Shown here: positions 15,055-63,624 of the stretch, in pieces
Layout of the letters: every line of letters starts with the position of its first letter
How positions within the stretch are numbered: position 1 is the first letter of the stretch
From: Bacteroidaceae bacterium
GTDB taxonomy: Bacteria > Bacteroidota > Bacteroidia > Bacteroidales > Bacteroidaceae
Reading direction: 5' to 3'
Assembly: GCA_017616445.1 (NCBI GenBank)
Contig: JAFZYE010000079.1
Span: 1 to 63,624, forward strand
Length of the DNA stretch: 63,624 bases
Translations under genes and position numbers: made by a program
The notes under the pieces: generated by a model
The model's input: only the letters and a program-made list of their open reading frames with translations
Told to the model about the DNA's origin: nothing
Databases searched by the model: none

Positions 15055-15075
15055 TGGGGGAGTCGGAGGGGGGTC
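15055..15075. repeat. Palindromic element remnant next to a stop codon
   Basis: GGGGGAGTCGGAGGGGGG then TCT matches the right half of the type-2 element at 51949 (GGGGGAGTCAGAGGGGG then CT). The left C-run is missing: the terminator T-run stands there instead. It touches the 3' end of the phosphatase gene. Confidence 0.6.
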
Positions 15076-16490
15076 TATTCCAGATAAATGCTATTGGCAT
15101 ATTCTTTTTGTGCGGCTGTAAGGAGTTGGCGGAATACCCCATCGTTGTGAAGCTGAGCCAATGAGTAGGCGGCTACCAACCGTCCTGCCTGTACGTCGCT
15201 CTTGAAATGGAAACCGAGGATGGTGCGGCTGCGACCGTATTCATAACCTCTTTCCAAGAGGGCATCCTGACAGTCGGGCATCACTTCTACAAGGGCGAGG
15301 GCGATACCCCATCCGATGATGGAATGTGATGACGGATAGCTGGATGAGGTGCTGTATTTCGCATCTTTCTCCGGCAAAGCTGAGTGTTCACCCATTCGCA
15401 GGAACGGACGCTGACGGAATGTCCCAGACTTGGCTTGAGAGCAGGCATCGCAGAGCTTTTCGAACAGATAGGTTACAAAAGCAGCGATGTCAGGCGTAGA
15501 GGTGATGTCGATAGGGATATTCGTGCAGGCACCGTAGGTCTGCAGGAAGTAGTTGACGTGGCAGGCAGTATCTGTCACAGCGTCTTCTCCTCTTGGTGTC
15601 GTTCGTTCGGCTTTTGCCTGCCAGTAATAGGTCACATCGCCATAATGGCGGTACGATGCCGTGTCGTCAGGGTAGTCGATGATACGTTCGATATGCGGAT
15701 AGTCTGTTTCCTTCTTCTGTAGTATAATTCCTTTGATACGTTGATACTCCACACGCGCATCTTCCAAATCTTCCAGAAACTCTGCTGAGGTGTGCATGCG
15801 TGCGATGGCTGCTGAAGCTGCCAGTCGTCCAGCATCTACGTCACTCTGCCAATGGGCTCCCACGATGACACGACTGTCACCATACTCATAACCCCTGCGA
15901 AGGATGGTGTCCTGATACTCAGGAGCCATCTCTGCCAAAGCCAGGGCGGTGCTCCATCCGAATCCGGTATGTCCGGAAGGGTAGGAGCCGTTGTGACGGA
16001 GGTCCCATTCGTTGTCGAACTCACCCCACACATGTTCGTTCATCCTGGCGAAAGGACGTACACGCATGTACTTGCGCTTTGCCTTGCCTGTCGCTTTGTT
16101 ACCCGTCTCACCTACACGTTGCAGGAGTCGCCAGATGGCAGGTGTCTCTTCCTTGCTGATGGTCATATTCATCGCCTCTCCGAAAACCGTCGCCATACGT
16201 TTCACGCCATAGAGCGATTCCCAGCTTGCCTGCTTTCCCCGTTCTGTGTTACGGATTGACTTTCCCCATATCCAACGCATGTAATCGTCGACAAACAGGG
16301 TACTTGCCGTATCGGGTGGTACAGGCAGATAGGCGCATGGATCGGGTAGCTCGTTGGTCGAGAAGTATGTCGAGTTGTCTGGTCGCCTCTCTTTGTTTTG
16401 CGCATTGATAATCAGGGTACTGCAAACGAAGAGAATCAGCAACATGCTGATGAAGCGGTTGTGGATGGGTTGTGTCTGTTGAGTCATCAT
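15075..16490 (-). CDS. Secreted acid phosphatase with two fused class A (PAP2-type) domains
   Basis: About 471 residues with a signal peptide (ISMLLILFVCSTLIINAQ), so periplasmic or secreted. Class A acid phosphatases carry K-x6-RP, PSGH and SR-x5-H-x3-D. The first domain has all three (KRKYMRVRP, YPSGH, SRVIVGAHWQSD). The second has KSGTFRQRP, YPSSH and SRTILGFHFKSD, so only the Gly of PSGH differs. Usual family members have one such domain, so this is an internal duplication and fusion. I start at the ATG pair near 16490 because the promoter at 16510-16541 lies upstream of it and inside the longer frame. The C-terminus ends next to a palindromic element remnant. Confidence 0.87.
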   Translation of the reverse strand: MMTQQTQPIHNRFISMLLILFVCSTLIINAQNKERRPDNSTYFSTNELPDPCAYLPVPPDTASTLFVDDYMRWIWGKSIRNTERGKQASWESLYGVKRMATVFGEAMNMTISKEETPAIWRLLQRVGETGNKATGKAKRKYMRVRPFARMNEHVWGEFDNEWDLRHNGSYPSGHTGFGWSTALALAEMAPEYQDTILRRGYEYGDSRVIVGAHWQSDVDAGRLAASAAIARMHTSAEFLEDLEDARVEYQRIKGIILQKKETDYPHIERIIDYPDDTASYRHYGDVTYYWQAKAERTTPRGEDAVTDTACHVNYFLQTYGACTNIPIDITSTPDIAAFVTYLFEKLCDACSQAKSGTFRQRPFLRMGEHSALPEKDAKYSTSSSYPSSHSIIGWGIALALVEVMPDCQDALLERGYEYGRSRTILGFHFKSDVQAGRLVAAYSLAQLHNDGVFRQLLTAAQKEYANSIYLE

Positions 16491-16509
16491 GGATTTGAAA
16501 TTTGTTATA

Positions 16510-16541
16510 CAAAGGTACATCTTATTTGCCAACTAACCAAA
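16510..16541 (-). promoter_or_regulatory. Promoter of the double phosphatase gene
   Basis: On the minus strand TTTG (16538-16541), 20 bp and TACCTTTG (16510-16517) match the Bacteroidetes consensus. The predicted start near 16503 leaves a leader of about 13 bases before the ATG at 16490. Confidence 0.75.
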
Positions 16542-16580
16542 CTTTTTCTTGGAAAAGGAGAAAAAAATAATAATTATAGC

Positions 16581-16611
16581 AAAAAAAAAGGGATGTGCTT
16601 ATGCACACCCC
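16581..16611 (-). terminator. dnaK transcription terminator
   Basis: On the minus strand GGGGTGTGC, ATAA, GCACATCCC (one non-Watson-Crick position) is followed by nine T residues. It lies about 100 bp after the dnaK stop codon. Confidence 0.85.
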
Positions 16612-16712
16612 TCGTGGTTATGATCGTTAGAGTCTAACTTTCTCAACTCTCAACTTTATTATGCATTATGCATTATGAATTATGCATTGTCTAAAGCCTA
16701 AAGTCTAGAGTC

Positions 16713-18638: not shown

Positions 18639-18896
18639 AATCTTATTTTTAAAATTTATAATTTACAATTTGATTTCCAATTTTGTTATTTGGCAATTTG
18701 TGTATTTCATCGGCATACTATTCTCTCACCTCTTACTTCTCACTCCTCACCTCTGTCTTTTCTGCAAATCGGATGCCAAAAATAAAAATGGTGCTGATTG
18801 ATGGCTGTGGTTTGTTTTTTCCTGCCAAATCTGCCAGATTGTCTGCCAAAATCATAATTATTATAAATTATAAATTAGTTATTGTAAATTTTTTCG

Positions 18897-18904
18897 TACC
18901 TTTG
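18897..18904 (+). promoter_or_regulatory. Putative -7 box for the vWA-like gene
   Basis: TACCTTTG lies 24 bp before the ATG at 18929 and supports that start over the longer open frame. A clear -33 box was not found at the expected distance. Confidence 0.5.
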
Positions 18905-18928
18905 CCTTGTCAAAAGAAAACGATTGTA

Positions 18929-19696
18929 ATGTTAAGAGAATTGAGGATACTGATTAGTCTCTCGTTGCTGTGCGTTGCAGGGTTCTGTCAGCATGTCACA
19001 GCGCAGGTTGAGAAGGTGGATTATTTGTGGTTGGTCGATGTGTCGGGTGCGCGTAACATTTATTTGGAAGGAATGCAGTCTGCCATCGATACGTTCTATG
19101 TGGCAGCAACGAAACACGATGAGCTTCATGTGTATAACTTTGCCAAGACCGTAGCGACGAAAGACGACATCGTCGATGCCGACTTCTATCAATATAGCGA
19201 CTTGGGTTGTATGCTCGTGGCGTTGGATTCGCTGATAGCACATAGCCCCAGCCGATATGTGAGGGCGTTTGTCCTGTCCGACTTCTTCAACGAAGACCCT
19301 GTCGAAGGTGATGCCCGACTGAATCCTGCCGGCTACGCAGCCGTTCGGGACCATCTGGTGACTGTATGCAAAACCAAGAATGTGGAGATCTACCTGTTGA
19401 TTCTCCCTCCTTCGAGCAATTACAACGGCTATTCGCTTGAGGAGGTGAAGTCGTTGCTGCCTTACGACCACACGGAGACTTTCGGAGTGAGTCCCGACCA
19501 TCGTACGGTCGACTACCTCATGCAGAAGGTAGAGGCAGTCAATCAGCTCCGAGGCGTGCACGACGAGGTGGTCGAGCCCCACTCACCCCTTGCCACTTAT
19601 ATAATATTAGGTGTCTTCATTGCCGCTTTGGCAGGAGTAGCGATATATCTAAAGTTGAGACCCCTCTCTAACTCCCCCGAGGGGAAGGAAGGGTAA
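18929..19696 (+). CDS. Secreted, membrane-anchored vWA-like protein
   Basis: 255 residues. A signal peptide (LISLSLLCVAGFCQHVTA) is followed by a fold resembling a von Willebrand A domain: YLWLVDVSGARN at about residue 33 stands where a MIDAS motif DxSxS would be, but its second Ser is Ala, so metal binding may be lost. Later segments (VRAFVLSDFFNEDP, NVEIYLLILPPSS) fit the alternating strands of that fold. A C-terminal helix (YIILGVFIAALAGVAIYL) anchors it. The last dozen residues (RPLSNSPEGKEG) are encoded by a palindromic element at 19659-19693, which suggests the original C-terminus was replaced or extended. No partner genes of a known vWA system lie nearby. Confidence 0.7.
   Translation: MLRELRILISLSLLCVAGFCQHVTAQVEKVDYLWLVDVSGARNIYLEGMQSAIDTFYVAATKHDELHVYNFAKTVATKDDIVDADFYQYSDLGCMLVALDSLIAHSPSRYVRAFVLSDFFNEDPVEGDARLNPAGYAAVRDHLVTVCKTKNVEIYLLILPPSSNYNGYSLEEVKSLLPYDHTETFGVSPDHRTVDYLMQKVEAVNQLRGVHDEVVEPHSPLATYIILGVFIAALAGVAIYLKLRPLSNSPEGKEG
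19659..19693. repeat. Palindromic element, type 2, encoding a C-terminus
   Basis: GACCCCTCTCTAACTCCCCC, then GA, then GGGGAAGGAAGGG. It lies in frame at the end of the vWA-like gene and its last G abuts the TAA stop. Confidence 0.8.
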
Positions 19697-19815
19697 AGTT
19701 GATAGTTGATAGTTTATAGTTTATAGTCAGTTTAATAGGTTAATAGTTTAATCGATAAATAACTAAATGGTAAATAGTTAAATTGGAAATAAATAGTCAA
19801 TTGAAAATTGTAAAA
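19697..19815. repeat. AT-rich short repeats
   Basis: Runs of GTTGATAGTTTATAGTTTA- and AATAGTTAAATTGG-type words with 7- to 11-bp spacing fill the gap before the DUF975-type gene. No gene or clear promoter was seen in it. Confidence 0.6.
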
Positions 19816-19829
19816 TAGTAAATGAGATT

Positions 19830-25508: not shown

Positions 25509-26261
25509 ATGAATATGCAACGAATTATTATTATTCCAATATTGTTCTTCCTATCGCTTTTTGCGATGGCTCAGAATGCACTCGAACCAGCAGTTTTTGA
25601 GGATTTTGCTACCATGAGCAACGAACCTCGTCAACACTACAAGGCAAAAAGGACAAAACTGCTTCAGCTGAACAAGTTAAGTTGTGGGGTGTTTATCTCC
25701 CGCTCGTTCCGAAATGAGGGCATCTTGGGGTATGATCCCGTGAAGCATGCATTGGTATATCACGAATCAATCAAGAGTATCTGGGATCAGGCATGGAAGG
25801 AATCGATGATACTTGAAAAATCAGATGATGGCACGAATCATTGGGAGTTCCGCGACAAACCCCTTAGGGCTTGGAATGTACCTGTCACATACCATCAGAT
25901 GCGAATACCTGACGACTTGGCATTCGACCTGTTCGACCTATGGAGCAATGCCATCCGAGCCGCCAGGGAAGATGAATCACAGGTTGCTGTCCTTGATGGC
26001 ACGTCGTATGAAGTCTTTGTCAGAGGTGCGAATCCTATGTATGCACGCACCAATGGTTGTGCCAGACGAAAGGCTCCTGAAGGGCAGGAGTACCTCGTGC
26101 GTCGTCTGTTAAGACTCAATCGCCAACTCGTTGAGGCTGTAACGAAGGGTAAACGTCGCATGCTCGATGATTTGCGTGCTGACATCAAATTCCTTGCTCT
26201 TGACTTCGCACAGGATGCGGCTGTCGACGATAATGGCTGGAAGTTCAGACATGCGTTTTAG
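25509..26261 (+). CDS. Secreted hypothetical protein
   Basis: 250 residues beginning with a signal peptide (IIIIPILFFLSLFAMAQ) very like those of the two upstream genes, which suggests shared origin of the 5' end. The mature part is mostly helical and charged, with no motif I recognise. Visible segments include NPMYARTNGCARRKAPEG and the C-terminal VEAVTKGKRRMLDDLRADIK. It follows the DUF4419 fusion gene by 159 bp on the same strand, so the three may act together. A palindromic element begins at its TAG stop codon. Confidence 0.6.
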   Translation: MNMQRIIIIPILFFLSLFAMAQNALEPAVFEDFATMSNEPRQHYKAKRTKLLQLNKLSCGVFISRSFRNEGILGYDPVKHALVYHESIKSIWDQAWKESMILEKSDDGTNHWEFRDKPLRAWNVPVTYHQMRIPDDLAFDLFDLWSNAIRAAREDESQVAVLDGTSYEVFVRGANPMYARTNGCARRKAPEGQEYLVRRLLRLNRQLVEAVTKGKRRMLDDLRADIKFLALDFAQDAAVDDNGWKFRHAF

Positions 26262-26296
26262 CCCCTCCCGACCTCCCCAAGGGGAGGACGGGGTGA
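26261..26296. repeat. Palindromic element, type 2, touching a stop codon
   Basis: GCCCCTCCCGACCTCCCC, AA, GGGGAGGACGGGGTGAG. The first G is the last base of the TAG stop of the preceding gene. AT-rich AAGTTTAAGGTTC repeats follow up to the helicase stop. Confidence 0.75.
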
Positions 26297-26341: not shown

Positions 26342-27799
26342 TCATTCTTTTGGCCAATTGACGAGGTATACATTGTCGGTAGCACGGGTGAAGGCGGTGT
26401 AGAGCCAGCGGTAGTAGTCGAGCCCCATCATCTCTTCTGTGATGTACCCTTGGTCGATAAATACTTGCGACCACTGTCCACCCTGTGCCTTGTGGCAGGT
26501 GATGGCGTAGGCATACTTGATTTGCAGGGCATTGTAGTAGGGGTCTTCCTTCATCTTCTTCATCCGATCCTTCTTACATGGGATGTCGGCATAGTCCTCG
26601 AGCACTCGGTTCCACAGCTCCTCGTTCATCTCATGTGGCAGCGCAGGAGCCTCGGTATGAAGGGTATCGAGCAGCACGGTAGCTGTGAGTTCCATGTTGT
26701 CGTAGTCAGGGAAGCGCAGTTCGCAGTCCGCAAATCGGAAACCATATAACTCGCGTTCATTACGCACGCGCAGCACCTGAGCGATATCGCCGTTGGCAAT
26801 GAAAGAAAGGGAAGCCCCCTCTAACTCCCCCGAATGGGGGAGGATATCGGACATGGTGTTTTTTGTCCAAAAATAGTTGTTTTTGACAATCATGATGATA
26901 TCGCCTGAGGCGAGTTCTTCCTCACGGTCGAGTATCTGGTTGCGGATGCCCATGTTGTAGATATGTGCACGCTTGTTGGAGCGGCATACGACGATGGTGT
27001 CGTCTGTTCCGTAGTTGTGGTAGCAGTTGGAGAGCGTTTCGATGAGTTCGTTGCCAGGAACGTTTTGGACATCTTTTCCCCATTGCACCTTGAATCCCGC
27101 ACCTTGACCACTCTGACTGATGATGCCGCGTAGCTGTGTGGCATTTTTTAGGATGCCTGAGAGGTTGTGCTGACGCACTACTTGTGAGAGTGTCATGCAG
27201 GTGACATCCAGTCCATAACCCTTCAGTACTTCTGGTTGTAGGGCAGGACTCTTCGTGTTGCCAACAGGGGGCAGCTGAGCTGTGTCGCCCAGCAGGATGA
27301 GTCGGCATCCTTCGCCTGAATAGACAAATTGGATGAGATCGTCGAGGAGGCGTCCTGTTCCATACACCGTATTGGTGGCATCGTTGGAAATCATAGAGGC
27401 CTCGTCGACAATGAACAGGGTGTTCTTCATGGTGTTGTAGCCCATAGAGAAAACGGTGTCGTCCTCGATGGATTTCTGTCGGTAGATGCGCTTGTGGATG
27501 GTGAATGCCTCGTGATTGGAATAGAGAGAGAGCACCTTAGCTGCCCGACCTGTCGGTGCCATCAGTACACATCGGCGTTCGAGCTGCTCCATCGTCCTGA
27601 CTAACGCAGAAACCAACGACGTCTTGCCCGTTCCTGCATAACCTCGCAGGATGAAAACTTGGTCGTTGATTTGGCCACTTGTACCCTTGTCAACTGAAAG
27701 GATAAAATCAGTCAACGCTTCAACGACTTCTTGCTGTTGAGTTGTCGGATTATGACCGAAATTATTTAAAATTAGCTCCCTAAAGTAGTCAAATATCAT
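26342..27799 (-). CDS. RecD/Dda-like ATP-dependent DNA helicase with an in-frame element insertion
   Basis: 485 residues from ATG 27799; a TTG 12 bases upstream is a possible alternative start. Superfamily 1B helicase motifs are in order: Walker A GYAGTGKTSL (53-62), APTGRAAKVL, VDEASMI (Walker B, 131-137), LLGDTAQLPPVG, and near the C-terminus CHKAQGGQW and YTAFTRATDNVYLVNW. Such proteins unwind DNA during repair or replication. Residues about 319-329 (ILPHSGELEGA) are encoded by a palindromic element (26814-26845) that also occurs between genes; the frame is kept. The insert lies just before the conserved FIANGDIAQVLRV strand. The gene precedes rsmD in opposite orientation. Confidence 0.88.
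   Translation of the reverse strand: MIFDYFRELILNNFGHNPTTQQQEVVEALTDFILSVDKGTSGQINDQVFILRGYAGTGKTSLVSALVRTMEQLERRCVLMAPTGRAAKVLSLYSNHEAFTIHKRIYRQKSIEDDTVFSMGYNTMKNTLFIVDEASMISNDATNTVYGTGRLLDDLIQFVYSGEGCRLILLGDTAQLPPVGNTKSPALQPEVLKGYGLDVTCMTLSQVVRQHNLSGILKNATQLRGIISQSGQGAGFKVQWGKDVQNVPGNELIETLSNCYHNYGTDDTIVVCRSNKRAHIYNMGIRNQILDREEELASGDIIMIVKNNYFWTKNTMSDILPHSGELEGASLSFIANGDIAQVLRVRNERELYGFRFADCELRFPDYDNMELTATVLLDTLHTEAPALPHEMNEELWNRVLEDYADIPCKKDRMKKMKEDPYYNALQIKYAYAITCHKAQGGQWSQVFIDQGYITEEMMGLDYYRWLYTAFTRATDNVYLVNWPKE
26814..26845. repeat. Palindromic element, type 2, inside the helicase gene
   Basis: AGCCCCCTCTAACTCCCCC, GAAT, GGGGGAGGA in + orientation. It matches the intergenic copy at 19659 and, inverted, the copy at 51949. 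It adds about 11 codons without shifting the frame. Confidence 0.85.
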
Positions 27800-27898
27800 T
27801 GTTATTTGCAAAAAATTGATGCTTTATTGTCCTTAATTCATTTTAATTCATTATTTTTGTGCCACGAATATACAAAAAATTAATTGATAACAAAAATT

Positions 27899-28585: not shown

Positions 28586-28715
28586 TAAAGTTTATAGTTT
28601 AAAGTTTATAGTTTATAGGTTCTTGGCTATAGATTATAGTTTAAAGTTTATAGGTTATTGGCTATAGATTATAGGTTATAGTTTATAGTTTATAGTTTAA
28701 AGATAATTGAGCTAT
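28586..28715. repeat. AT-rich periodic repeats
   Basis: AGTTTATAGTTTAAAGTTTA-type words and TTGGCTATAGATTATAG (twice, about 44 bp apart) fill the gap before rsmD. No promoter or gene could be distinguished within it. Confidence 0.75.
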
Positions 28716-46445: not shown

Positions 46446-46475
46446 CTCTCCCCTTTCAAGGGGAGCGGGGAGAGG
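46446..46475. repeat. Palindromic element, divergent type 2
   Basis: CTCTCCCCTTT, CA, AGGGGAGCGGGGAGAG, between the orphan promoter and array C. It shows the same hairpin-plus-third-G-run layout as the other copies. Confidence 0.6.
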
Positions 46476-46502
46476 ATCTTCTCTGGTCTTTTGGCGGCCG
46501 CC

Positions 46503-46578
46503 GCAAGATATTCGCACGCCCGCCGCAAGATATTGCCCCGCCCGCTGCAAGATATTCGCACGGGCGGGGCAAACTAGT
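46503..46578. repeat. 22-bp-period decamer array, locus C part 1
   Basis: GCAAGATATT occurs exactly at 46503, 46525 and 46547, and the related GCAAACTAGT at 46569, all 22 bp apart. Spacers are CGCACGCCCGCC, GCCCCGCCCGCT and CGCACGGGCGGG. The third spacer keeps CGCACG and then carries the reverse complement of CCCGCC, the end of the first. The core is AT-rich, the spacers nearly pure GC. Confidence 0.88.
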
Positions 46579-46579
46579 T

Positions 46580-46645
46580 ACACCCTATCTCTCTCCCTTT
46601 TCTACCTATGTGTTTTCCCTGTTACACCCTAGTCTTTTCCCCTTT
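46580..46645. repeat. 22-bp-period decamer array, locus C part 2
   Basis: ACACCCTATC at 46580, CTACCTATGT at 46602 and ACACCCTAGT at 46624, with pyrimidine-rich spacers TCTCTCCCTTTT, GTTTTCCCTGTT and CTTTTCCCCTTT. It is offset by 11 bp from part 1, half a period. Read on the other strand, its AACAGGG words match locus B part 1. Confidence 0.7.
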
Positions 46646-50407: not shown

Positions 50408-50433
50408 TTCCCCCTAAAGGGGGGTAGGGGGTC
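50408..50433. repeat. Palindromic element, type 1, between sigma and anti-sigma genes
   Basis: TTCCCCCTAAAGGGGGG, TA, GGGGGTCT. It fills almost the whole gap between the sigma stop and the anti-sigma start and could form a hairpin in the operon mRNA. Confidence 0.85.
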
Positions 50434-50434
50434 T

Positions 50435-50941
50435 TTATTTTTTCAATCTTTCTCGCATCTCCTCGTACACTTTCTTTCTCGCTCTCGACACCATCACCTG
50501 AATCGATGCCTTCGCTATGCCTGTCCGTTGGGCAATCTCGTCGTTCGAAAGTCCATCCAGTTGCCGTAGTTCGAACAGTTCGCGTTCGCGTGGATTGAGG
50601 CCGTCAATGAGTTGCTGCAACAACTCCGCCGCTTCTGTCCGCTCCAGCTCTTCATGTGGCGATGCATCTGCTCCGATCTCCCGCTCGTGTGCCGGCATCA
50701 GTTCCACGGTGATTCCGCGTCGTCTGCGCTGCATGTCCACACAGCAATGTTTTGCAATCCTTATGGCCAATCCGCTGATATTACGACCTGCATCCAACTT
50801 CTCAGCATATTGCCACAACTGCACCAGTGCCTCTTGTGCCACATCCTCAGCATCGTCGGACGAGCCGAAGAAGTCCATGCCCACCTTCCACATCGAAGGG
50901 CGCAACTCAATGGCAATATGTTCGAACTCCACTTGGGTCAT
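50435..50941 (-). CDS. ECF-type RNA polymerase sigma factor
   Basis: 168 residues from ATG 50941. Region 2 contains FFGSSDDAEDVAQEALVQLW, the core-binding and -10 recognition helix. Region 4 contains LNPRERELFELRQLDGLSND, followed by the HTH EIAQRTGIAKASIQVMVSRARKK (split here across the helix turn). Bacteroidetes ECF factors with a linked membrane anti-sigma respond to envelope signals. It heads an operon of sigma, anti-sigma, secreted protein, barrel and membrane protein. Confidence 0.93.
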   Translation of the reverse strand: MTQVEFEHIAIELRPSMWKVGMDFFGSSDDAEDVAQEALVQLWQYAEKLDAGRNISGLAIRIAKHCCVDMQRRRRGITVELMPAHEREIGADASPHEELERTEAAELLQQLIDGLNPRERELFELRQLDGLSNDEIAQRTGIAKASIQVMVSRARKKVYEEMRERLKK

Positions 50942-50998
50942 ACAACTAATATGCGTAAACAACAAGAAAAACTTAACTCCGAAAAGCTAAGTTTTTTG

Positions 50999-51042
50999 GA
51001 CCCCCTCTGTCCTTTTGGACATCTCCCCCTTAAGGGGGAGCA
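50999..51042. repeat. Palindromic element, type 2 variant
   Basis: GACCCCCTCTGTCC, TTTTGGACAT, CTCCCCCTTAAGGGGGAG. A second small stem (GTCC with GGAC) lies inside it. It is upstream of the sigma gene, followed by TCTAGAGTCTAAGGCC-type repeats. Confidence 0.75.
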
Positions 51043-51074: not shown

Positions 51075-51103
51075 TTCCCCCCTAAAGGGGGTTAGGGGGT
51101 CAA
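51075..51103. repeat. Palindromic element, type 1, overlapping a stop codon
   Basis: TTCCCCCCTAAAGGGGG, TTA, GGGGGTCAA. On the minus strand its GACCCCC end forms part of the TGA stop of the FNT gene. Confidence 0.85.
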
Positions 51104-51717
51104 CTCTCTTTATCGAAATTTATGATTCTCACCAAATTACATCCGACCGTGTTGCCCAGCACGATGGCAACATAAAGAATTAATATATCTATAAGGTGAG
51201 CTGCCCAGAAGTCGGTGGGAACGGCCAGATAGTAGAATGCATCGGCGATGCAGTGGGGGAATCCACAAACGATGAAGATAGGCACACCATAGAGTAGGGG
51301 ATACCATTTGTTCTCGTACTTTGCAAACTTCACGCTTACCGTCATGATGAATCCGCACCCGATAGCCAGCAATCCACAACGTAGGGGACCGTTTGCCAGA
51401 CGGCTCTCCAGTATGCCTTGGGCCACACCCTGCAGGTCGGCTGGTGAGTTGTACGACAAGAGGGCAACAAGTAACGTACCGATGATATTGCCCAACAGCA
51501 CCTTGGGAATCTCTTTAACAGGCAGACCCTTGCTTCCTCCACAGAAGCCTACGGTGCCAGTGAACAGTTTGAAACCATAATGAACTACAGCCAAAAGGCC
51601 GAAGGTAAAGAGTACGATGCCGATGATGTCTTTGCTCATCAGGTAGCCGAAGCCAGCTATGCCGATACAGATACCGGCCATGATGCTACTGCGTAGCGTT
51701 GCGATAAAATCTTTCAT
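51100..51717 (-). CDS. Formate/nitrite transporter (FNT) family channel
   Basis: 205 residues with six hydrophobic helices. GFGYLMSKDIIGIVLFTFGL and KLFTGTVGFCGGSKG match helices 1-2 of the FNT fold, and CGFPHCIADAFYYL carries the central His of FNT channels. The protein is shorter than the usual 260-280 residues. FNT channels move formate, nitrite or hydrosulfide; the ion here cannot be told. The stop codon lies in a palindromic element. The gene is alone on the minus strand. Confidence 0.8.
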   Translation of the reverse strand: MKDFIATLRSSIMAGICIGIAGFGYLMSKDIIGIVLFTFGLLAVVHYGFKLFTGTVGFCGGSKGLPVKEIPKVLLGNIIGTLLVALLSYNSPADLQGVAQGILESRLANGPLRCGLLAIGCGFIMTVSVKFAKYENKWYPLLYGVPIFIVCGFPHCIADAFYYLAVPTDFWAAHLIDILILYVAIVLGNTVGCNLVRIINFDKES

Positions 51718-51844: not shown

Positions 51845-51948
51845 TCTAAAGTCTAACTTTCAACTCGTTCAACTGACTTTAAACTTTCAACTGACTTTAA
51901 ACTTTAAACTTTGAACTTTAAACTATCAACTATCAACTATCAACTTTA
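51845..51948. repeat. AT-rich periodic repeats
   Basis: CTTTCAACTGACTTTAAACT, then ACTATCAACTATCAACTATC. The repeats end at the stop codon of the sensor kinase, where a palindromic element takes over. Nothing else was seen in 51718-51945. Confidence 0.75.
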
Positions 51949-53904
51949 TTCCCCCTTGGGGGAGTCAGAGGGGGCTGCTTCTGCAAACACTTCGGATGGG
52001 AAGCGGACGATGAAGCGGCAGCCATCGAAATAGTTGGTGTCGAGGGTGAGGCTACCTCCCAGGTAAGTGATGTGGCGAAGGGCGAGCGGGAGTCCCAGAC
52101 CCAGTCCTTCAGACAGATCGTCGATTTTGGTGAATGGCTCGAACATCTTCTCGCGGTGCTCCTGAGGAATACCTGCTCCTGTGTCTTCAATCACAAACTG
52201 TACATACTCTTCTGTTCCTGACACAAGCATGGCCACATTCTTTCCGTCAGAATACTTGGCTGAGTTGTAGAGCAACTCGCGCAGACCTCGCATGAGGAAG
52301 AGGTGGTTTGAAAGCAGACAGACGGAGTCGGGTATGCTTGTCTCGAGTTTCACGGTGAGACCAGGGAAATTCCTCTGGGTGTAGTCAACGCACTCATGCG
52401 CCAGTTTGTTGCATGATATAATCTCATGTCGTTTCGTCTTCATCTCTTCGAAGACACCTATGTCTGAACTGTCGAAGAGCATCTGCGTCATACGTCTCAG
52501 CTTCTTTGCCTCGCTATTCATGATGTCGGCTAATGACTTCACCTCTTCTTTTGGAATGACATCGAAATTACCTTCCATCACTTGTGCAAATCCCATGACG
52601 ATGTTCATCGGTGTACGGATCTGGTGGGTCATGTTGTGGATGAAGGTGGTTTTCTGAAGTGCTGCCTCTTCGGCCATTTCGCTGGCTTTCGCAAGTTCGT
52701 CGTTTCGTCGTGCTGTCTCGTGGTTCACCTTGCGGATGGCGCTTACGTGGCGGTCGAGTGATGACTGCATCTGCATGAAGCTGTTCTGGAGTTGTCCGAC
52801 TGCATCGTGGCGTGTGCTATGTGGGATACGCTCGTCGTAGAGGCCGGCTTCGATACGTCGTGTTTGAACGAGCAGCTGCTCTAATGGGCTGATGGCATGA
52901 ACGACTGAACGGCGACCCAGGATGAGGATGAGTGTCAAACCGATAATCAGGATAGGGATGATGATAGAGGTCAGTTTTTGGTAGTCTTGCAGGATGTCGC
53001 TTTCCGGACAGATGATGGCCATGCTCCACAGGGCATTACGGATGGGCTTGTAGCACACGATGCAAGGTTGTCCTTCAATCACTACGGACATGCTGCCTTC
53101 CTGTCCGGATGACATCTCATGACCCAAGGCAATGAGGTCGGCCTGTGTGACAGGGTCGGCTCCTTCGAAGATAGGGGTGAAGAGTCGGGTAGAGTCGGGG
53201 TGTATGTAGAACTGCCCTCGGCGGTCGACCATCACGTAGTAGGAGTTGGGGTATGGTTTGTCGGCCGTAATCATACGTGAGAGACGTGTGAGCGACAGGT
53301 CGACTGTGATGACTCCGATGAGTGTGCTGTCTGTTCTGTTGGGATCGAACAGCGGTCGGCTATAGGTGGCAAGCATGCCGTTGAGTACCACATCGAGGGA
53401 GTCAACTTCGTCGTAGTAAACCGTCCATCCTGACCTCCTCGTGCTACGCGGGTTGGCATACCATATACGTGTGAAGTATTCGTATGGCTGTTCGAAGACG
53501 CTCGTGATGGTGTCGTTTTCACGGATGGTGTAGGCCGAGCAATACCTGCCAAATTCAGGGAACATATCAGGTTCGGCTCCGATGGAGCATCCGTCGATAT
53601 TACCATTCAGCTCTACGATACGGCGTGAGAGGGCGAGCATGGAATCAGGAACGAAGTTCTCCTCAACAATCCAAGTGTAGATGTTGGTAGCTGTCTCAGC
53701 AATTCGCAGGTAGCGATCGACATGATGTGATGCCGTGCTGAGTCGGCTCATAGCATGCTCTGTCGCCTCACGTTTGATATAGGAACGCGACTCAAGAAAG
53801 AGGAGTCCAATCGACAGCACGAAGATAGGCACCGCCAGCAATATGATGCTGAAGATGAGCTTCCCTGAGAGCGATCGGCGTATTTTCCTTTCAAGTGCGA
53901 ACAT
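51946..53904 (-). CDS. Membrane sensor histidine kinase (dCache, HAMP, HisKA, HATPase)
   Basis: 652 residues. TM1 (LIFSIILLAVPIFVLSIGLL), a large extracytoplasmic dCache-like sensor (about 40-310), TM2 (SIIIPILIIGLTLILILG), a HAMP domain (about 330-385), and the kinase. The H-box FIHNMTHQIRTPMN carries His427 and the ATPase part has NSAKYSD, VIEDTGAGIP and GLGLGLPL. No receiver domain or response regulator is adjacent. The last ten residues (AAPSDSPKGE) and the stop come from a palindromic element. It starts 5 bp after a degenerate paralogue. Confidence 0.92.
   Translation of the reverse strand: MFALERKIRRSLSGKLIFSIILLAVPIFVLSIGLLFLESRSYIKREATEHAMSRLSTASHHVDRYLRIAETATNIYTWIVEENFVPDSMLALSRRIVELNGNIDGCSIGAEPDMFPEFGRYCSAYTIRENDTITSVFEQPYEYFTRIWYANPRSTRRSGWTVYYDEVDSLDVVLNGMLATYSRPLFDPNRTDSTLIGVITVDLSLTRLSRMITADKPYPNSYYVMVDRRGQFYIHPDSTRLFTPIFEGADPVTQADLIALGHEMSSGQEGSMSVVIEGQPCIVCYKPIRNALWSMAIICPESDILQDYQKLTSIIIPILIIGLTLILILGRRSVVHAISPLEQLLVQTRRIEAGLYDERIPHSTRHDAVGQLQNSFMQMQSSLDRHVSAIRKVNHETARRNDELAKASEMAEEAALQKTTFIHNMTHQIRTPMNIVMGFAQVMEGNFDVIPKEEVKSLADIMNSEAKKLRRMTQMLFDSSDIGVFEEMKTKRHEIISCNKLAHECVDYTQRNFPGLTVKLETSIPDSVCLLSNHLFLMRGLRELLYNSAKYSDGKNVAMLVSGTEEYVQFVIEDTGAGIPQEHREKMFEPFTKIDDLSEGLGLGLPLALRHITYLGGSLTLDTNYFDGCRFIVRFPSEVFAEAAPSDSPKGE
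51949..51976. repeat. Palindromic element, type 2, encoding a kinase C-terminus
   Basis: TTCCCCCTTGGGGGAGTCAG, then AGGGGGCT. On the minus strand it encodes the last residues of the kinase, APSDSPKGE, before the TAA. Confidence 0.85.
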
Positions 53905-55589: not shown

Positions 55590-55632
55590 CTCTCCTCCTT
55601 AGAAAGGGGGAGTACCCAAAGGGGGAGGGAGT
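55590..55632. repeat. Palindromic element, divergent copy
   Basis: CTCTCCTCCTTAGAAAGGGG, GAGTACCCAAAG, GGGGAGGGAGTA. It lies in the gap (55446-55657) between the sensor promoter and DUF3667, where nothing else was recognised. The arms are less regular than in other copies. Confidence 0.55.
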
Positions 55633-55657
55633 ATGATATGGAGAACTTCTGCTTTTA

Positions 55658-58136: not shown

Positions 58137-58139
58137 AAC

Positions 58140-59461: not shown

Positions 59462-59511
59462 AAAAACACAAAAACTTTCGACTTTCAACTATAAACTTTA
59501 AACTTTATTCG

Positions 59512-59531
59512 TATATTTGCACGCAAAATTA
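59512..59531. promoter_or_regulatory. Overlapping divergent -7 boxes, nadK and pdxJ
   Basis: TATATTTG at 59512-59519 faces nadK and TAATTTTG at 59524-59531 on the minus strand faces pdxJ. -33 boxes are not clear for either. The close spacing means the two promoters should interfere. Confidence 0.45.
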
Positions 59532-59596
59532 GCGAAAAAAATTGTAGTGTAAGCGGTTATTAAGATTATTTTAGATAAAAAAGGTAAAAAATAGAG

Positions 59597-60502
59597 ATGC
59601 AACAGGGTAAATTTAAGATAGCGTTATTCGGAAACATCTACCAGGAGAAGAAATCGGTAGCTGTGCAGAAGTTCTTTGCGGTGGCCAGCGAACTGAAGGC
59701 GGAATTGATGATTCCTGCTTCGTTTTACGCGTTCCTCGTCGATAATCTGCAAATCAATGTGCCAACATGCCGCATTCTTGAGGAGGAGCAGGGCGAACCG
59801 CTCGATGCCGATGTGGTGGTATGTATGGGAGGCGATGGTACCTTCCTTGATGTGGCCAGTAAGGTAGGAGCCCGTCTGATTCCGATTGTAGGTGTCAACA
59901 CGGGTCGTCTGGGATTCTTGGCCAACTTCTCGCCCGATGAGCTGGAGCAGATCTTGAAGAACCTCGCTAAAGGCAAGTACGAGGTGGAGGATCACAGCGT
60001 CATCGAACTCTCGTGCGAAGAGCAGGAGTTGGAGGGTTATCCTTGTGCGCTGAACGAGATTGCAATCCTCAAACACGATATCTCGGCCATGATTTCCATC
60101 CACACAGCTGTGAATGGCGAGTATCTCACCACCTATCAGGCCGACGGATTGATTATCGGTACTCCTACGGGTTCTACGGCTTATTCGCTGAGTGTGGGCG
60201 GTCCTATCATCACACCTCGGTTGGACACCATCTCGCTGACCCCTGTCGCTCCCCATAGCCTCAATATGCGTCCTATCCTTGTGGACGACAACTCGGTCAT
60301 CGACCTACGTGTCGAAAGCCGAAGCGGCAGTTTCCTCGTCTCACTCGACGGACGCAGTCATAGCTATCGCGACAATATCCATCTGCATATCCGCAAGGCA
60401 CCATACTGTGTGAAGGTCGTTACCCATCCCAGTCACACCTTCTTCTCCACCCTTCGTCAGAAGATGATGTGGGGAGCTGATACGAGGAAATGGACCCCCT
60501 AA
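59597..60502 (+). CDS. nadK: NAD kinase
   Basis: 301 residues. NadK phosphorylates NAD to NADP. GGDGT is at 78-82, followed by PIVGVNTGRLGFL, the NE/D site ALNEIAIL and TPTGSTAYSLSVGGPI. The C-terminus RKWTP and the stop codon are in a palindromic element (60491-60520), so the original end may have been altered. It diverges from pdxJ. Confidence 0.95.
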   Translation: MQQGKFKIALFGNIYQEKKSVAVQKFFAVASELKAELMIPASFYAFLVDNLQINVPTCRILEEEQGEPLDADVVVCMGGDGTFLDVASKVGARLIPIVGVNTGRLGFLANFSPDELEQILKNLAKGKYEVEDHSVIELSCEEQELEGYPCALNEIAILKHDISAMISIHTAVNGEYLTTYQADGLIIGTPTGSTAYSLSVGGPIITPRLDTISLTPVAPHSLNMRPILVDDNSVIDLRVESRSGSFLVSLDGRSHSYRDNIHLHIRKAPYCVKVVTHPSHTFFSTLRQKMMWGADTRKWTP

Positions 60503-60520
60503 CCCCCTTTAGGGGGAATT
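60491..60520. repeat. Palindromic element, type 1, forming the nadK stop
   Basis: GGACCCCCTAA, CCCCCTTTAGGGGGAA. The first TAA is the nadK stop codon, and the two codons before it (ACC CCC) come from the element. It is inverted relative to 63591. Confidence 0.85.
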
Positions 60521-60557
60521 AAGTTGATAGTTGATAGTTCAAAGTTGAAAAAATTAA

Positions 60558-60735
60558 AGGAGTAAAAGAAGTTAAAGGAGTTACCGCTGCGCTCCGAAGT
60601 TAACGCTTCGCTAGACGGAACCAATGGGTGTTAACATCAGCAAACTTTCGTCGAACGTAGTGATAACTTCGAGGCCGTAGGCCGTTAACTTCGAGTGAAA
60701 CGATAACTTCTAGCGAAGCGATAACTTCTTAAGAA
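60558..60735. repeat. Interspersed GTTACCGC-type repeat, divergent copy 3
   Basis: GTTACCGCTGCGCTCCGAAG then GGTGTTAACATCAGCAAAC, followed by several GATAACTTC and GTTAACTTC words (for example CGATAACTTCTAGCGAAG). Related to 22765 and 25350. It ends 5 bp before the HPr-kinase-like gene, and I see no other promoter for that cluster. Confidence 0.7.
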
Positions 60736-60740
60736 AAGAG

Positions 60741-61592
60741 ATGACAAACTACTATACCGTTGCAGGACATATATTTAGTGTCTGTGGGGAGGAAGAGATA
60801 TTCTCCCGAATGGATAACTATGCACCCTTCTCTTCGGGCGCTGCAGAGACGGTGGTCTTCTCGTTGAGTGTCGAAGGGGGAGAGCCGCCTGCCTACGTAG
60901 AGGAAATCCGTCAGGACGATGAGGGGCAGGTCATCATCTGTGGACGAACCCCAGCAGGCGAACCTGTGTTTGAGTATCGTTGGGGTGGCAAGTCGGCTGG
61001 ATGGCTCATCTGCTCTGCCGACTATGTCCGTTCGCGACTCGTGGTGACCGATGGCTACCAGAAACTGGCTGTCGATAATGCGCTGATGGTGCTCTATGCC
61101 CTTGCTACGGCACGATTGCAGACAGCTCTCTTTCATGCTGCGGCTGTGAGTTACAAGGACTGTGCCTATATGTTCCTGGGCAAAAGTGGAACGGGTAAGA
61201 GCACACATGCACGGTTGTGGCAACAGTATATCGAGGGTGTGGAACTGGTAAATGATGACAACCCTGTGGTACGTATCATGGATGACGGTCAGGCGTGGGT
61301 CTTTGGGTCTCCTTGGAGTGGAAAGACTCCTTGCTATCGTCCGGTGAGCTATCCCCTGAAGGGCATCGTGCTCCTGAGTCAGGCTCCCTACAACAAGATA
61401 GAACGTCTTCGAGGCATTCAGGCCTATGCGGCACTTGTGCCGAGCATCAGCGGAAAACGGTGGGATGAGCGCATAGCCGACGGGCTGCATCAGACAGAGA
61501 ACACGTTGGCATCTCACGTACCTGTGTGGCATCTGGAGTGCTTGCCCGATGAGGCTGCCGCACGGATTTGTAACGAGACGATATCAGCATGA
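60741..61592 (+). CDS. HPr-kinase-like ATPase
   Basis: 283 residues. The C-terminal half has the HPr kinase/PEP carboxykinase fold: P-loop GKSGTGKST (147-155), VNDDNPVVRI (170-179), and SPWSGKTPCYR. The N-terminal half is a beta-rich unknown domain. Such proteins next to PqqD-like genes occur in peptide-maturation loci, where they may phosphorylate a peptide. It overlaps the next gene by 4 bp (ATGA). No HPr or PTS gene is near, so a role in PTS control is unlikely. Confidence 0.75.
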   Translation: MTNYYTVAGHIFSVCGEEEIFSRMDNYAPFSSGAAETVVFSLSVEGGEPPAYVEEIRQDDEGQVIICGRTPAGEPVFEYRWGGKSAGWLICSADYVRSRLVVTDGYQKLAVDNALMVLYALATARLQTALFHAAAVSYKDCAYMFLGKSGTGKSTHARLWQQYIEGVELVNDDNPVVRIMDDGQAWVFGSPWSGKTPCYRPVSYPLKGIVLLSQAPYNKIERLRGIQAYAALVPSISGKRWDERIADGLHQTENTLASHVPVWHLECLPDEAAARICNETISA

Positions 61593-62032
61593 ACGACACC
61601 ATCATCATACAAGAGGCCATCCGACTGGTTGGAGAAGGAATTAGCGTGACCTTTCCCGTTAAAGGGTGGAGCATGTTGCCTTTCATCATCGGGGGACGTG
61701 AGAGTGTCATCCTCCAGAAACCTGTCGAACCCAAGGTGGGTGATGTGGTGCTTGCATGGGTGGAAGGCAACCGCTATGTAGTCCATCGTATCATCCGTAT
61801 TGAAGAGGGTCAGGTGACGCTCATGGGCGATGGAAACGTGGCAGGTACGGAGCATTGTTCGCTTGCAGATGTGAAGGCTCTCGCAACCCATGTGGTTGAT
61901 GCCAAAGGACGGAAACACTACCTCTATACCCGCTGGCGCCGATGGGCAGCCAAGCTTTGGTTCCACCTCCGTCCCATCCGACGATATCCGTTGGCGATTG
62001 TTAGAAGAGTAGGACCCCCTAACCCCCTTTAG
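61589..62032 (+). CDS. S24/S26-type peptidase-like protein
   Basis: 147 residues. VKGWSMLPFI holds the Ser of the signal-peptidase/LexA-like family, and the later KVGDVVLAWV and YVVHRIIRI are typical of S26 peptidases. The usual catalytic Lys position is not evident from reading alone. No signal anchor is seen at the N-terminus. The last residues (VGPPNPL) are encoded by a palindromic element. It may process the peptide of this cluster. It overlaps the HPr-kinase-like gene by 4 bp. Confidence 0.75.
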   Translation: MNDTIIIQEAIRLVGEGISVTFPVKGWSMLPFIIGGRESVILQKPVEPKVGDVVLAWVEGNRYVVHRIIRIEEGQVTLMGDGNVAGTEHCSLADVKALATHVVDAKGRKHYLYTRWRRWAAKLWFHLRPIRRYPLAIVRRVGPPNPL

Positions 62033-62039
62033 GGGGAAT
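62011..62039. repeat. Palindromic element, type 1, encoding a C-terminus
   Basis: AGGACCCCCTAA, CCCCCTTTAGGGGGAAT. In frame at the end of the peptidase-like gene: it encodes GPPNPL and the TAG stop. The reading frame differs from that of the copy at the nadK end. Confidence 0.85.
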
Positions 62040-62170
62040 GAGGGTAAAGTTCAAAGTTTAAAGTTCAAAGTTTAGAGTCAGTTGAATAAATAGTTCAATT
62101 GTAAATAGCGAAATTGTAAATAGCGAAATTGGAAATAAATAGTCAATAGTAAATTGTTAAATTGTAAATA
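62040..62170. repeat. AT-rich short repeats before the PqqD-like gene
   Basis: GTTCAAAGTTTAAAGTTC and AATTGTAAATAGCGAAATTG words. No promoter was recognised in it. Confidence 0.6.
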
Positions 62171-62175
62171 AAATT

Positions 62176-62445
62176 GTGCAAATAAAATCTGGATTTGTGC
62201 TACGCGAAGTGTGTGGCGAGAAAGTGATTGTGGGCGAAGGACTCGACGCCATCAATTTTGGTAAGTTGCTCTCGTTGAACGAGACAGCTGCATGGTTGTG
62301 GAAACAGGCGAAGGAGATGGGCGATTTCTCTGTCGACGATTTGGCCGCTAAACTGTGTGAGGAATACGAAGTGTTAGCAGACGACGCAAAGGCCGATGTA
62401 GCTGAGATGCTTGACGAATGGAAACAAGTAGGGGTGGTAGAGTAA
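62176..62445 (+). CDS. PqqD-like peptide-binding protein
   Basis: 89 residues read from GTG 62176, the only plausible start. GFVLREVCGEKVIV, LNETAAWLWKQA and CEEYEVLADDAKADVAEMLDEW (in two pieces here) match PqqD-type RiPP recognition elements, which hold a leader peptide for modifying enzymes. It lies between the peptidase-like gene and the ABC exporter. No precursor peptide was recognised in the window; it may lie beyond the right edge. Confidence 0.8.
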   Translation: MQIKSGFVLREVCGEKVIVGEGLDAINFGKLLSLNETAAWLWKQAKEMGDFSVDDLAAKLCEEYEVLADDAKADVAEMLDEWKQVGVVE

Positions 62446-62545
62446 AGTTCAAAGGTTAATAGGTTAGAGGTAAGAGGTAAGGAGTAAGAGGTAAGAGGAT
62501 AGTTCGCTGGTGTTAACGTCCTATGGTATTCTCTCACCTCTCACC
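62446..62545. repeat. AT-rich and CTCACCTCT-type short repeats before the exporter gene
   Basis: GGTTAGAGGTAAGAGGTAAG words and CTCTCACCTCTCACCTCT, which are inverse to each other, flank TTCGCTGGTGTTAACGTCC. That central part is like the inverse of the end of the 22765 repeat. Confidence 0.6.
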
Positions 62546-62564
62546 TCTAAAAAAGTTGAAAAAT

Positions 62565-63624
62565 ATGCGCTTTAACAAGACAAAATATCCCACTCGGACA
62601 ATCCTGCGATGGCTGTGGAGCCACCATAAGGGATGTCGTACTCAGGCCATCACCAATGTGGTGGTCGGACTGTTGCAGGTGGGACTTGGTCTGTGGGGCG
62701 TGGAGCAGTTGCGCCAACTGACCGATGTGGCTACAGGCAAGCAGGAGGGACATCTCCTCTGGATGGTTGCCCTCTATGTGGTCATCATGCTCGCTGAGTT
62801 CCTCTGTCACATCAGTCGCACATGGTTGGCAGCTGTGCTGGGTGTCCGTACCCAGAACATGATGCAGCGTCAGTTCTTCGAGCGTATCTTGAAAGGGAAG
62901 TGGAGCGGCATCGAGCGGTTCCATAGCGGCGATGTGCTGAACCGTCTGTTCGGTGATGTCAACGATATCGTGAATCTGATGTCTGAAGTATTGCCGTTCC
63001 TCGTAACCATTATTGTGCAGTTTATTGCGTCATTTGTATACCTTCTACTGATGGACTCCACCCTGGCCATCATCATCGTCATCAGCTGTCCGATTTTCCT
63101 GCTGCTGAGCAAACTCTATTTCCGCAAGATGCGGCGTATCGTGCGCAAGCTGAAAGACAGCAACAGCGACCTGCAGTCAACCATACAGGAGAGCATCCAG
63201 CATAAGATGGTCATCAAGGTCATGGAGATGGCCGACCGCATGGTCAGCCGTCTGGCTCGACGTCAGCAGCTGCTACAATGGCAGACCCAGCAGCGAGCCC
63301 GTCTGTCCATCCTGACACGCACCATCGTCTTCATCGGCTTCCGAGGAGCAGCGATTGCTGCGCTCGCCTACGGACTGGTGCAGGTACAGAACAATGTCAT
63401 CACAGTAGGTATGCTTATGGCCTTCACACAGTTGGTGTGGCGCATTCAGCATCCGTTGCTCGATCTGGGACGACTCCTCCCTACGCTGGTCAACAGCTTT
63501 GCATCCTCCGAACGACTCATGGAACTCGAAGAGCTGCCTGTCGAACAGGCTGCGGCTCATGGAACTTCTGGAACCCTTGGAACATCTTCATTCCCCCTAA
63601 AGGGGGTTAGGGGGTCTAAGGGGG
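62565..63624 (+). CDS. ABC exporter, N-terminal part (runs off the right edge), with an in-frame element
   Basis: 353 residues are visible, with no stop before the edge. Membrane helices are in the order of a type IV exporter half: TNVVVGLLQVGLGLWGV, WMVALYVVIMLAEFLCHI, FLVTIIVQFIASFVYLLLM, TLAIIIVISCPIFLLLS, then IVFIGFRGAAIAALAYGLV and GMLMAFTQLVW. The coupling-helix FHSGDVLNRLFGDV fits an ABC transmembrane domain. After the last helix a low-complexity linker (HGTSGTLGTSS) leads into FPLKGVRGSKG, encoded by a palindromic element. The ATPase domain should follow outside the window. It is likely the exporter of the peptide cluster. Confidence 0.85.
   Translation, partial: MRFNKTKYPTRTILRWLWSHHKGCRTQAITNVVVGLLQVGLGLWGVEQLRQLTDVATGKQEGHLLWMVALYVVIMLAEFLCHISRTWLAAVLGVRTQNMMQRQFFERILKGKWSGIERFHSGDVLNRLFGDVNDIVNLMSEVLPFLVTIIVQFIASFVYLLLMDSTLAIIIVISCPIFLLLSKLYFRKMRRIVRKLKDSNSDLQSTIQESIQHKMVIKVMEMADRMVSRLARRQQLLQWQTQQRARLSILTRTIVFIGFRGAAIAALAYGLVQVQNNVITVGMLMAFTQLVWRIQHPLLDLGRLLPTLVNSFASSERLMELEELPVEQAAAHGTSGTLGTSSFPLKGVRGSKG
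63591..63618. repeat. Palindromic element, type 1, inside the ABC exporter gene
   Basis: TTCCCCCTAAAGGGGG, TTA, GGGGGTCTA. It starts exactly at codon 343 and keeps the frame open to the edge. It lies in the linker between membrane and ATPase parts. Confidence 0.85.

Follow-up and report, generated by a model that had tools for sequence, protein, structure and literature searches.

The window analysed here, 63,624 nt of contig JAFZYE010000079.1 of a Bacteroidaceae bacterium, raises the question of what short GC-rich palindromes are doing at the ends, and sometimes in the middle, of genes. The original prediction had listed 14 sites at which a C-run and a G-run enclose a short loop. We inspected all 14 and followed the near-identical palindromes among them, the type 1 element (T1; GACCCCCTAACCCCCTTTAGGGGGAA / GACCCCCTAACCCCCTTTAGGGGG), into related genomes. 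Near-identical copies are dispersed, occur as singles and as inverted pairs, and are specific to certain lineages, with empty sites in relatives; a given stop codon or protein linker can be taken by different subfamilies in different species, and most T1 copies lie in sense orientation at gene 3′ ends. The palindromes are probably related non-autonomous mobile elements of Prevotellaceae-type bacteria, similar to repetitive extragenic palindromes (REP) and REP doublets forming hairpins (REPIN), an estimate that includes the mechanism proposed below. We read them as REP-like in form and as similar to the Rickettsia palindromic elements (RPE) in their in-frame habit.

T1 in the window and in other genomes

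Five copies of T1 were found in the window, four exact and one with a single mismatch, starting at positions 50410, 51078, 60493, 62013 and 63593. None occurred in 100 dinucleotide shuffles of the window with three mismatches allowed, which bears out the prediction of five near-identical copies. In the following lines genes are the longest open reading frames (ORFs), obtained without a trained gene caller, and a slash marks where the element begins.

50410..50433, minus strand: T1 with one mismatch, 1 nt past the stop (TAA a/GACC) of an extracytoplasmic function (ECF) sigma factor ORF at 50435-50965 (minus strand)
51078..51101, minus strand: T1, completing the stop (T/GA) of a formate/nitrite-transporter-family ORF at 51100-51717 (minus strand)
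60493..60516, plus strand: T1, from which an NAD kinase ORF at 59597-60502 takes its final codons and its TAA stop (...RK-W-T-P-stop)
62013..62036, plus strand: T1, from which a peptidase S24-like ORF at 61589-62032 takes its final codons (GPPNPL) and its TAG stop
63593..63616, minus strand: T1, antisense and in frame (FPLKGVRGS) in an ORF at 62523-63624 that is open at the window edge and was labelled ABC-transporter-like solely by reading its translation

The broader hairpin pattern CCCC-N2-8-GGGG gave 22 overlapping matches in the window, at 12 distinct sites that correspond to 12 of the 14 listed, compared with a mean of 1.87 and a maximum of 6 in 100 shuffles. The observed frequency is far above that of shuffled sequence, the control that had been proposed with the original prediction. 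In 422 kb sampled from the genome of the window there were 81 C/G hairpins versus 11 with the mirror pattern GGGG-N2-8-CCCC; the sample was picked from contigs with pattern hits, which inflates the density, and the mirror control comes from the identical DNA. A looser pattern, searched for in the whole of this genome, gave 70 overlapping matches and 0 for its control. A scan of the window with Rfam returned 0 matches at the gathering score.

Exact T1 was present in 22 copies in the genome of the window (0 for the reversed pattern), in two of 17 same-genus genomes (22 and 4 copies) and in five of 399 family genomes (22, 4, 5, 49 and 1 copies, the 49 being those of genome G307); most of the compared genomes are incomplete metagenome-assembled genomes (MAGs). 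Among named species genomes at least 111 stretches carry exact T1, a sample chosen by the exact pattern, which underestimates the diversity of subfamilies and overestimates conservation. The titles of these stretches name Prevotellaceae, Bacteroidaceae, Bacteroidales or Prevotella MAGs, and many of these titles refer to ruminant rumen, omasum, reticulum, cecum or colon. The exact 23-nt T1 was found in 0 viral contigs, and carriage by phages was rejected on this result.

Anatomy and folding of the elements

A T1 unit consists of a 5′ tag GACCCCC, a 3-nt spacer, the hairpin CCCCC-TTTA-GGGGG and a tail AA. Conservation was measured in 235 copies within six mismatches of the consensus; the scan also demanded AGGG or CCC at set places, and most copies had been retrieved by exact match, so that the values are overestimates. 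The GA-CCCCC tag, the two C-runs, the TTTA loop and the G-run were conserved at 94-100% per position (tag G 97%, tag A 94%, CCCCC 97-100% per position, loop 98-100%), and the drifting positions were the 3-nt spacer (78-89%) and the last letter of the tail (78%). The earlier suggestion of two competing hairpins is structurally right, since two C-runs vie for one G-run, and folding favours an outer 8-bp stem (-13.4 kcal/mol) over an inner 5-bp stem (-9.7 kcal/mol); a function of this competition found no support. The outer stem was rejected as the conserved fold, as its pairs 8-10 form in just 49-79% of 81 distinct variants and fail in 21-51%. Because the letters that lengthen the outer stem are the drifting ones, we take the inner hairpin with its C-rich tag to be the conserved form. 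On each strand of T1 a single frame is open (DPLTPFRG / FPLKGVRG), which makes in-frame residence possible.

Several subfamilies share this general form. A second one, GACCCCCCNN-CCCCC-TTTA-GGGGG-AG, is recurrent in the genome of the window. Type 2 shares the tag, has the hairpin CTCCCCC...GGGGAG and often a second inverted end, AGACCC...GGGTCT; some type 2 elements reach ~115 bp with a common interior (loci L263 and L335). The looser group that had originally been pooled as type 2 comprises several subfamilies rather than one, some of them two-ended. T1 forms inverted pairs at L082, L136 and L061, is nested inside the loop of an older element at L083, L107 and L141, and lies within a GCCCCC-type element at L043, L051, L133 and L137. 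Tandem T1 arrays with a 30-nt period, and also ~44-nt units with heptads, were observed at L120 (17-159 and 4710-4787), L049 (1533-1585), L095 and L097, suggesting local amplification.

Position and strand relative to genes

Reading frames were analysed for 152 T1 copies after those near locus ends had been dropped, and strands and flanks for 115 copies after dropping those inside ORFs or less than 400 nt from a locus end; near-identical copies were merged by means of an 85-nt key. The claim that the elements supply stops was confirmed: 41 of the 152 copies end a frame with their own stop, 32 by TAA (codons ACC-CCC-TAA) and nine by TAG. Another 49 begin -2 to +9 of an existing or completed stop; a long frame runs through 20 more, and the other 42 lack a long sense frame. 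In the coordinates of the element, the genes flanking the 115 copies were oriented ++ in 82 cases, +- in 20, -+ in 11 and -- in 2, so that between co-directional genes T1 is sense in 82 cases and antisense in 2. When intergenic copies behind a sense gene were considered, 40 of 70 started -2 to +3 nt from the upstream stop, compared with 8.2 expected for uniform placement. On the tag side, the interval from -21 to +5 nt contained a sense gene end in 72 cases and an antisense gene start in 0. On the tail side, one of 15 convergent copies has its tail at an antisense stop, with 0.7 expected. Among 71 tagged hairpins of all types in the sample from the genome of the window, 25 were at a sense stop and two at an antisense stop; for the 49 that are not T1 the numbers were 11 and 0. 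This coupling to the sense strand is the most surprising part of the family.

The left flanks are purine-rich without a strict motif, and a fixed DNA target was rejected for this reason. Replication strand alone was also rejected: of 76 gene-end copies, 61 lie on the majority gene strand of their locus and 15 on the minority strand, a split to be set against 82:2 between co-directional genes. Stop-like trinucleotides stand beside gene-end copies in 17 of 32 cases in the -10 class versus 3.5 in other blocks, and more weakly in the other classes (2 of 9 versus 1.1, 7 of 20 versus 3.5 and 15 of 42 versus 10.5).

Transcription terminators, or chance GC-rich hairpins, would account for stable hairpins at gene ends, but we find this explanation hardly credible. 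No U-run follows the hairpin, whose tail is mostly AA[T/C]AA, and unit ends are not enriched: T1 is not in excess at convergent gene ends (82/20 versus a baseline of 801/308). On these two grounds an intrinsic terminator was rejected, and against chance stand the controls, which contained 0 chance copies.

Another explanation is that insertion itself is coupled to stop and strand, with a machinery that acts on the non-template strand exposed where translation ends (ribosome-free mRNA, R-loop). It predicts new copies at stop codons in the sense direction, in agreement with the 82:2 ratio, the 40 of 70 starts close to the stop and the 72 sense gene ends on the tag side; moreover, orientation follows the gene even on the minority strand of the locus (15 of the 76 gene-end copies). 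Where T1 starts at 0 to +2, all 29 stops are TAA or TAG, although TGA makes up 169 of the 638 stops in these loci. Nevertheless, we consider such coupling unlikely. On the tail side, antisense genes end in 4 cases and sense genes start in 2; TGA is found in 2 of 3 stops when the start is at +3, and against coupling also stand the 20 copies read through by a long frame and the 42 without a long sense frame. The expected number is calculated from present-day gaps; in some empty orthologs the gap is short (an ATGA overlap, or ~36 nt), and the median for co-directional gaps free of palindromes is 43.5 nt. Tightly packed operons, combined with purifying selection, account for some of the positional preference but hardly for that of strand.

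Empty sites and turnover at stop codons

At the NAD kinase gene (60493), none of 15 orthologs from the genus carries T1. Ten of these orthologs end exactly at the codon where the window continues TGG-ACC-CCC-TAA, five of them as ...RK-stop and five with another last residue; the remaining five differ by at least one residue, and one contig ends 13 nt past the stop. For the transporter-family ORF (51078) T1 was present in 0 of 14 same-genus orthologs, and at the stop in genome G009 there is another C/G palindrome. The sigma factor site (50410) carries T1 in one of ten same-genus genomes (G006) and lacks it in the nine others, and none of the six readable same-genus orthologs of the peptidase S24-like gene (62013), whose ends differ, has T1. 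The comparison of empty and filled sites proposed with the original prediction thus yielded both states among same-genus relatives, and the copies are not always present at the same sites.

One and the same stop can be occupied by different subfamilies depending on the species: T1 at L045 and L091 versus GGCCCCTCTCC... at L106, T1 at L149 versus a two-ended type 2 element at L114, T1 at L130 versus L056, and T1 at L106 versus L091. The comparative evidence indicates that the elements are mobile.

These data also bear on the explanation that T1 is a domesticated RNA signal, a sense hairpin past the stop selected for protection of the mRNA 3′ end, for efficient termination or for translational uncoupling. 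The sense bias and the position agree with it, and so does the excess of the element-TAA class (32) over the element-TAG class (nine); furthermore, Escherichia coli REPs no more than 15 nt from a stop are reported to stall ribosomes or affect translation (accessible text of PMC12306157). However, T1 is mostly missing from orthologs of the four window sites within the genus, elements of unlike sequence replace one another, some copies reside within ORFs, and convergent (unit-end) positions are not preferred. We regard selection as an RNA signal as very unlikely.

In-frame codons inside proteins

The overlap of the elements with coding sequence, part of the original prediction, is real, and in-frame codons were found both in the window and elsewhere. 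The window example is in a helicase linker:

26814..26843, plus strand: GCCCCC-type palindrome, in frame within a PIF1/RecD-like helicase ORF (Pfam AAA_30, UvrD_C_2, PIF1) at 26342-27811 (minus strand), yielding ...SDILPHSGELEGAS...

Among 14 same-genus orthologs, this linker consists of five codons in G003 and G015, and contains, in G013, a two-ended element of type 2 that measures ~110 bp, in G004 another hairpin pair, and in G006 and G012 relics resembling the palindrome of the window; the other eight orthologs have unrelated sequence. Outside the window, a class I tRNA synthetase (Pfam tRNA-synt_1), read as isoleucyl-tRNA synthetase (IleRS), has an element-bearing loop between TAQFK and AWTTTPW. 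A search gave matches in 59 of 61 genomes, some of them paralogs only, and the best 30 loci were read: the loop contains a T1 pair in three (query included), other C/G palindromes in three, and other, partly heptad-like sequence in the rest. A linker of a U32-type peptidase, like that of the helicase, holds different palindromes in different species, and PurM contains a T1 pair in frame; IleRS, U32 and PurM are names assigned by inspecting the translated sequences. In-frame elements were also observed at L171 (minus strand, 3314) and L165 (2712), just ahead of similar-looking C-terminal segments of two large proteins (..FDLQGRAVTTPTKGLYI.. / ..VNLNGQRITTLQKGLNIV..).

Other palindromes and repeats in the window

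The remaining listed sites are as follows.

10837..10861, minus strand: divergent relative, adjoining a heptad array
15055..15075, minus strand: half element GACCCCCCTCCGACTCCCCCA with the tag and second C-run, G arm absent; completes the stop (TA/G) of an ORF at 15075-16532
19659..19688, plus strand: GACCCC-type palindrome traversed by an ORF at 18683-19696, whose TAA comes just after
26261..26293, plus strand: GCCCC-type palindrome completing the stop (TA/G) of an ORF at 25509-26261
46446..46478, minus strand: GATCCTCTCCCCGCTCCCCTTGAAAGGGGAGAG-type palindrome, of a subfamily with more copies in the genome of the window
50999..51041, plus strand: type 2 with an additional small hairpin
51949..51975, minus strand: GCCCCC-type palindrome supplying the last codons (ending PSDSPKGE) and the stop of a sensor histidine kinase ORF at 51946-53904
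55590..55633, strand not assigned: doubtful or degenerate copy

Of the 14 sites listed under a single plan, 12 have the C4-N2-8-G4 hairpin; the exceptions are the half element at 15055 and the doubtful or degenerate copy at 55590, which is not supported as a member of the family. The site at 10837, suggested as a possible relative, carries the hairpin and is a divergent one. The type 2 element at 50999 and T1 at 51078 face each other as a 103-bp inverted pair with heptad repeats in between.

The intergenic regions of the window contain many degenerate heptanucleotide arrays (AGTTTAT, TTTACAT, AAAGTTC, TAGACTC and others), for example at 13608-13671, 28589-28699, 51876-51948 and 62097-62169, for which the TAACTGA repeats described in the accessible text of PMC4679880 offer a comparison. 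They often directly follow T1, and heptad-like arrays are also in frame in the synthetase loop of L309, L312 and L313. Short arrays of 22-bp tandem repeats, each with its own unit, are located at 1892-1949, 2022-2085, 8169-8236, 46498-46562 and 46577-46641. Behind the NAD kinase gene, at ~60546-60735, there is a ~190-bp dispersed repeat with many partial matches (~75-87%) in the same genome.

Possible mode of spread

If the palindromes are mobile in the way we propose, they would be copied via a single-stranded DNA stage by an enzyme that acts in trans. Their build of hairpin and tag, their occurrence as inverted pairs and the copies nested inside loops suggest a HUH-type or other single-strand mechanism, and a divergent protein similar to the REP-associated tyrosine transposases (RAYT) is perhaps a candidate for the mobilizer of T1. 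Insertions would persist where they are cheapest, at gene ends in tightly packed operons or in protein linkers. A settled element would then be a hairpin just past a stop and, as has been proposed for the REPs of E. coli, would modestly affect termination or the stability of the mRNA.

A number of observations weigh against this account. T1 is found at the same site in different species (L048/L090, L045/L091, L082/L086), and hence not all copies are recent. The right flanks at empty sites do not align, and there is no clean two-sided empty site. The orientation bias exceeds what tolerance alone predicts for a near-symmetric hairpin. The remaining points come from the search for an enzyme, in which no gene among those examined could be linked to T1 movement. 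The strong Y1 gene of the window's genome is IS200-type (68.3 bits) and is flanked by CCCCAAAGGGGCGACATA palindromes, not T1. Genome G307, with its 49 copies of T1, has one RAYT, L253, that exceeds the NCBIfam cut-off (95.6 bits) and whose flanks carry another palindrome. G006 and G321 carry T1 yet have no Y1 match above the cut-off. Around long, divergent RAYT-like genes no T1 was found in the ~0.5-1.3 kb fetched for each, and such genes are also present in G001 and G009, both without exact T1.

Y1 genes (PF01797) were found in six of the 17 genomes of the genus and in 134 of the 399 of the family, and the number of T1 copies does not follow the PF01797 matches. The kin of the IS200-type gene in G004 is flanked by CCCCAAAGGGGCGACATA-type palindromes, again not T1, and the repeats flanking L253 and a similar RAYT in G173 are of the GGATT...AATCC type. 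Among the strong Y1 genes (genus, G173, G307), a RAYT partner flanked by T1 was rejected, as they have other palindromes or none. No T1 was found beside the Y1 and RAYT-like genes L001, L032-L040, L252, L253, L255-L259, L261 and L262, within limited flanks of incomplete genomes; behind the Y1 gene L034 of G009 another C/G palindrome lies at a distance of ~230 nt. Several weak PF01797 matches are the long RAYT-like proteins (340-449 aa, with a PDH[LV]H-type motif). In T1-bearing genomes they are encoded at L257 (1288-2376) of G000, the genome of the window, at L256, L259 and L261 of G307, and at L258 and L262 of G173. L259, the only one of them scanned against NCBIfam REP_Tyr_transpos, scored 42.8 bits, below the cut-off of 80. 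Because genes of this kind also occur in genomes without exact T1, they leave the odds for a RAYT-like mobilizer in trans unchanged. Long divergent RAYT-like proteins with the PDH[LV]H-type motif were also observed at L038, L039 and L040, and the whole group provides candidates for a mobilizer acting in trans. The Y1 genes L001 (G000) and L033 (G004) have several inverted flanking copies of CCCCAA[A/C]GGGGCGA[C/T]AT, which make up a palindrome system of their own within the genus.

The mobile palindrome reading extends REP- and RPE-like biology to Prevotellaceae-type bacteria, many of them from the ruminant gut, in which tiny GC-rich palindromes appear to spread and to provide genes with terminal codons, stops or, in flexible protein linkers, short peptides. 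It offers a sharp and testable rule, that of a place at the stop codon on the sense strand. Enzyme linkers whose elements differ between species (IleRS-like synthetase, helicase, U32 peptidase) provide a direct view of new peptide segments entering proteins. If insertion itself were strand- and stop-coupled, it would represent a novel form of target choice; if selection is responsible instead, the numbers allow the cost of insertion to be measured at each operon position. A bolder version, doubtful in our view, is that of an expression-coupled mobile element that homes to the stop on the sense strand and brings its own stop, with sister elements serially overwriting one another at stops and linkers, so that conserved enzymes of this group would be constantly re-tailed and re-looped with peptides that the elements encode.

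Comparison with known systems

Like REP and REPIN sequences, 20-40 nt imperfect palindromes with an unpaired 5′ tag (accessible text of PMC3733652), the elements occur in many dispersed copies (22 exact in the genome of the window, 49 in G307 and 71 tagged hairpins in the sample from the former), as singles and as inverted pairs of the REPIN or bacterial interspersed mosaic element (BIME) kind (L082, L136, L061 and two-ended type 2). According to the same text, GTAG and CGTC REPs lie near the 3′ ends of ORFs and some within ORFs, and GTAG REPs can supply TAG stops; T1 likewise lies near ORF 3′ ends, gives stops and has some copies within ORFs. Unlike the REP tags, GTAG/GTGG or CGTC (or TGTC, CCTC), the T1 tag is GACCCCC, as measured in the 235 copies, and it holds a second C-run that competes for the same G arm. 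T1 also differs in that no cognate RAYT was identified among the genes examined, and in its strong sense-strand bias, which is unmentioned for REPs in the accessible text of PMC3733652. Atypical REPs without GT[AG]G are assigned to the Bacteroidetes TnpA-REP subclass 2.6 (accessible text of PMC6006769), and the present elements resemble them as Bacteroidetes palindromes without this tag; unlike T1, the palindromes at the flanks of the G307 RAYT and its G173 kin are of other kinds.

RPEs are in-frame coding insertions of ~150 bp (accessible text of PMC10969869). The likeness to them drawn in the original prediction is apt for behaviour, namely in-frame insertion into conserved coding sequences (helicase, IleRS-like, PurM, U32), and is one of habit, not a demonstrated kinship. 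Our elements differ from RPEs in size (T1 24-26 nt, T1 pair ~65 nt, type 2 ~40 to ~115 nt), and here different families occupy one protein site in different species. Two-ended type 2 elements resemble miniature inverted-repeat transposable elements (MITE): they lack coding capacity of their own, some measure ~115 bp, and the inverted ends AGACCC...GGGTCT, with one or two letters varying, are found at L005, L018, L156 and L335. Single T1 units, unlike MITEs, are one-ended.

In agreement with the original prediction, we found no description of this family in Prevotella-like genomes in keyword and letter-string searches of the literature, which mostly did not extend to subscription papers; nor did the literature searched report the sense-strand rule or different elements at one site. 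Because the family shares the habits of REP and RPE without their defining tags or a known cognate gene, we call it a new REP-like family.

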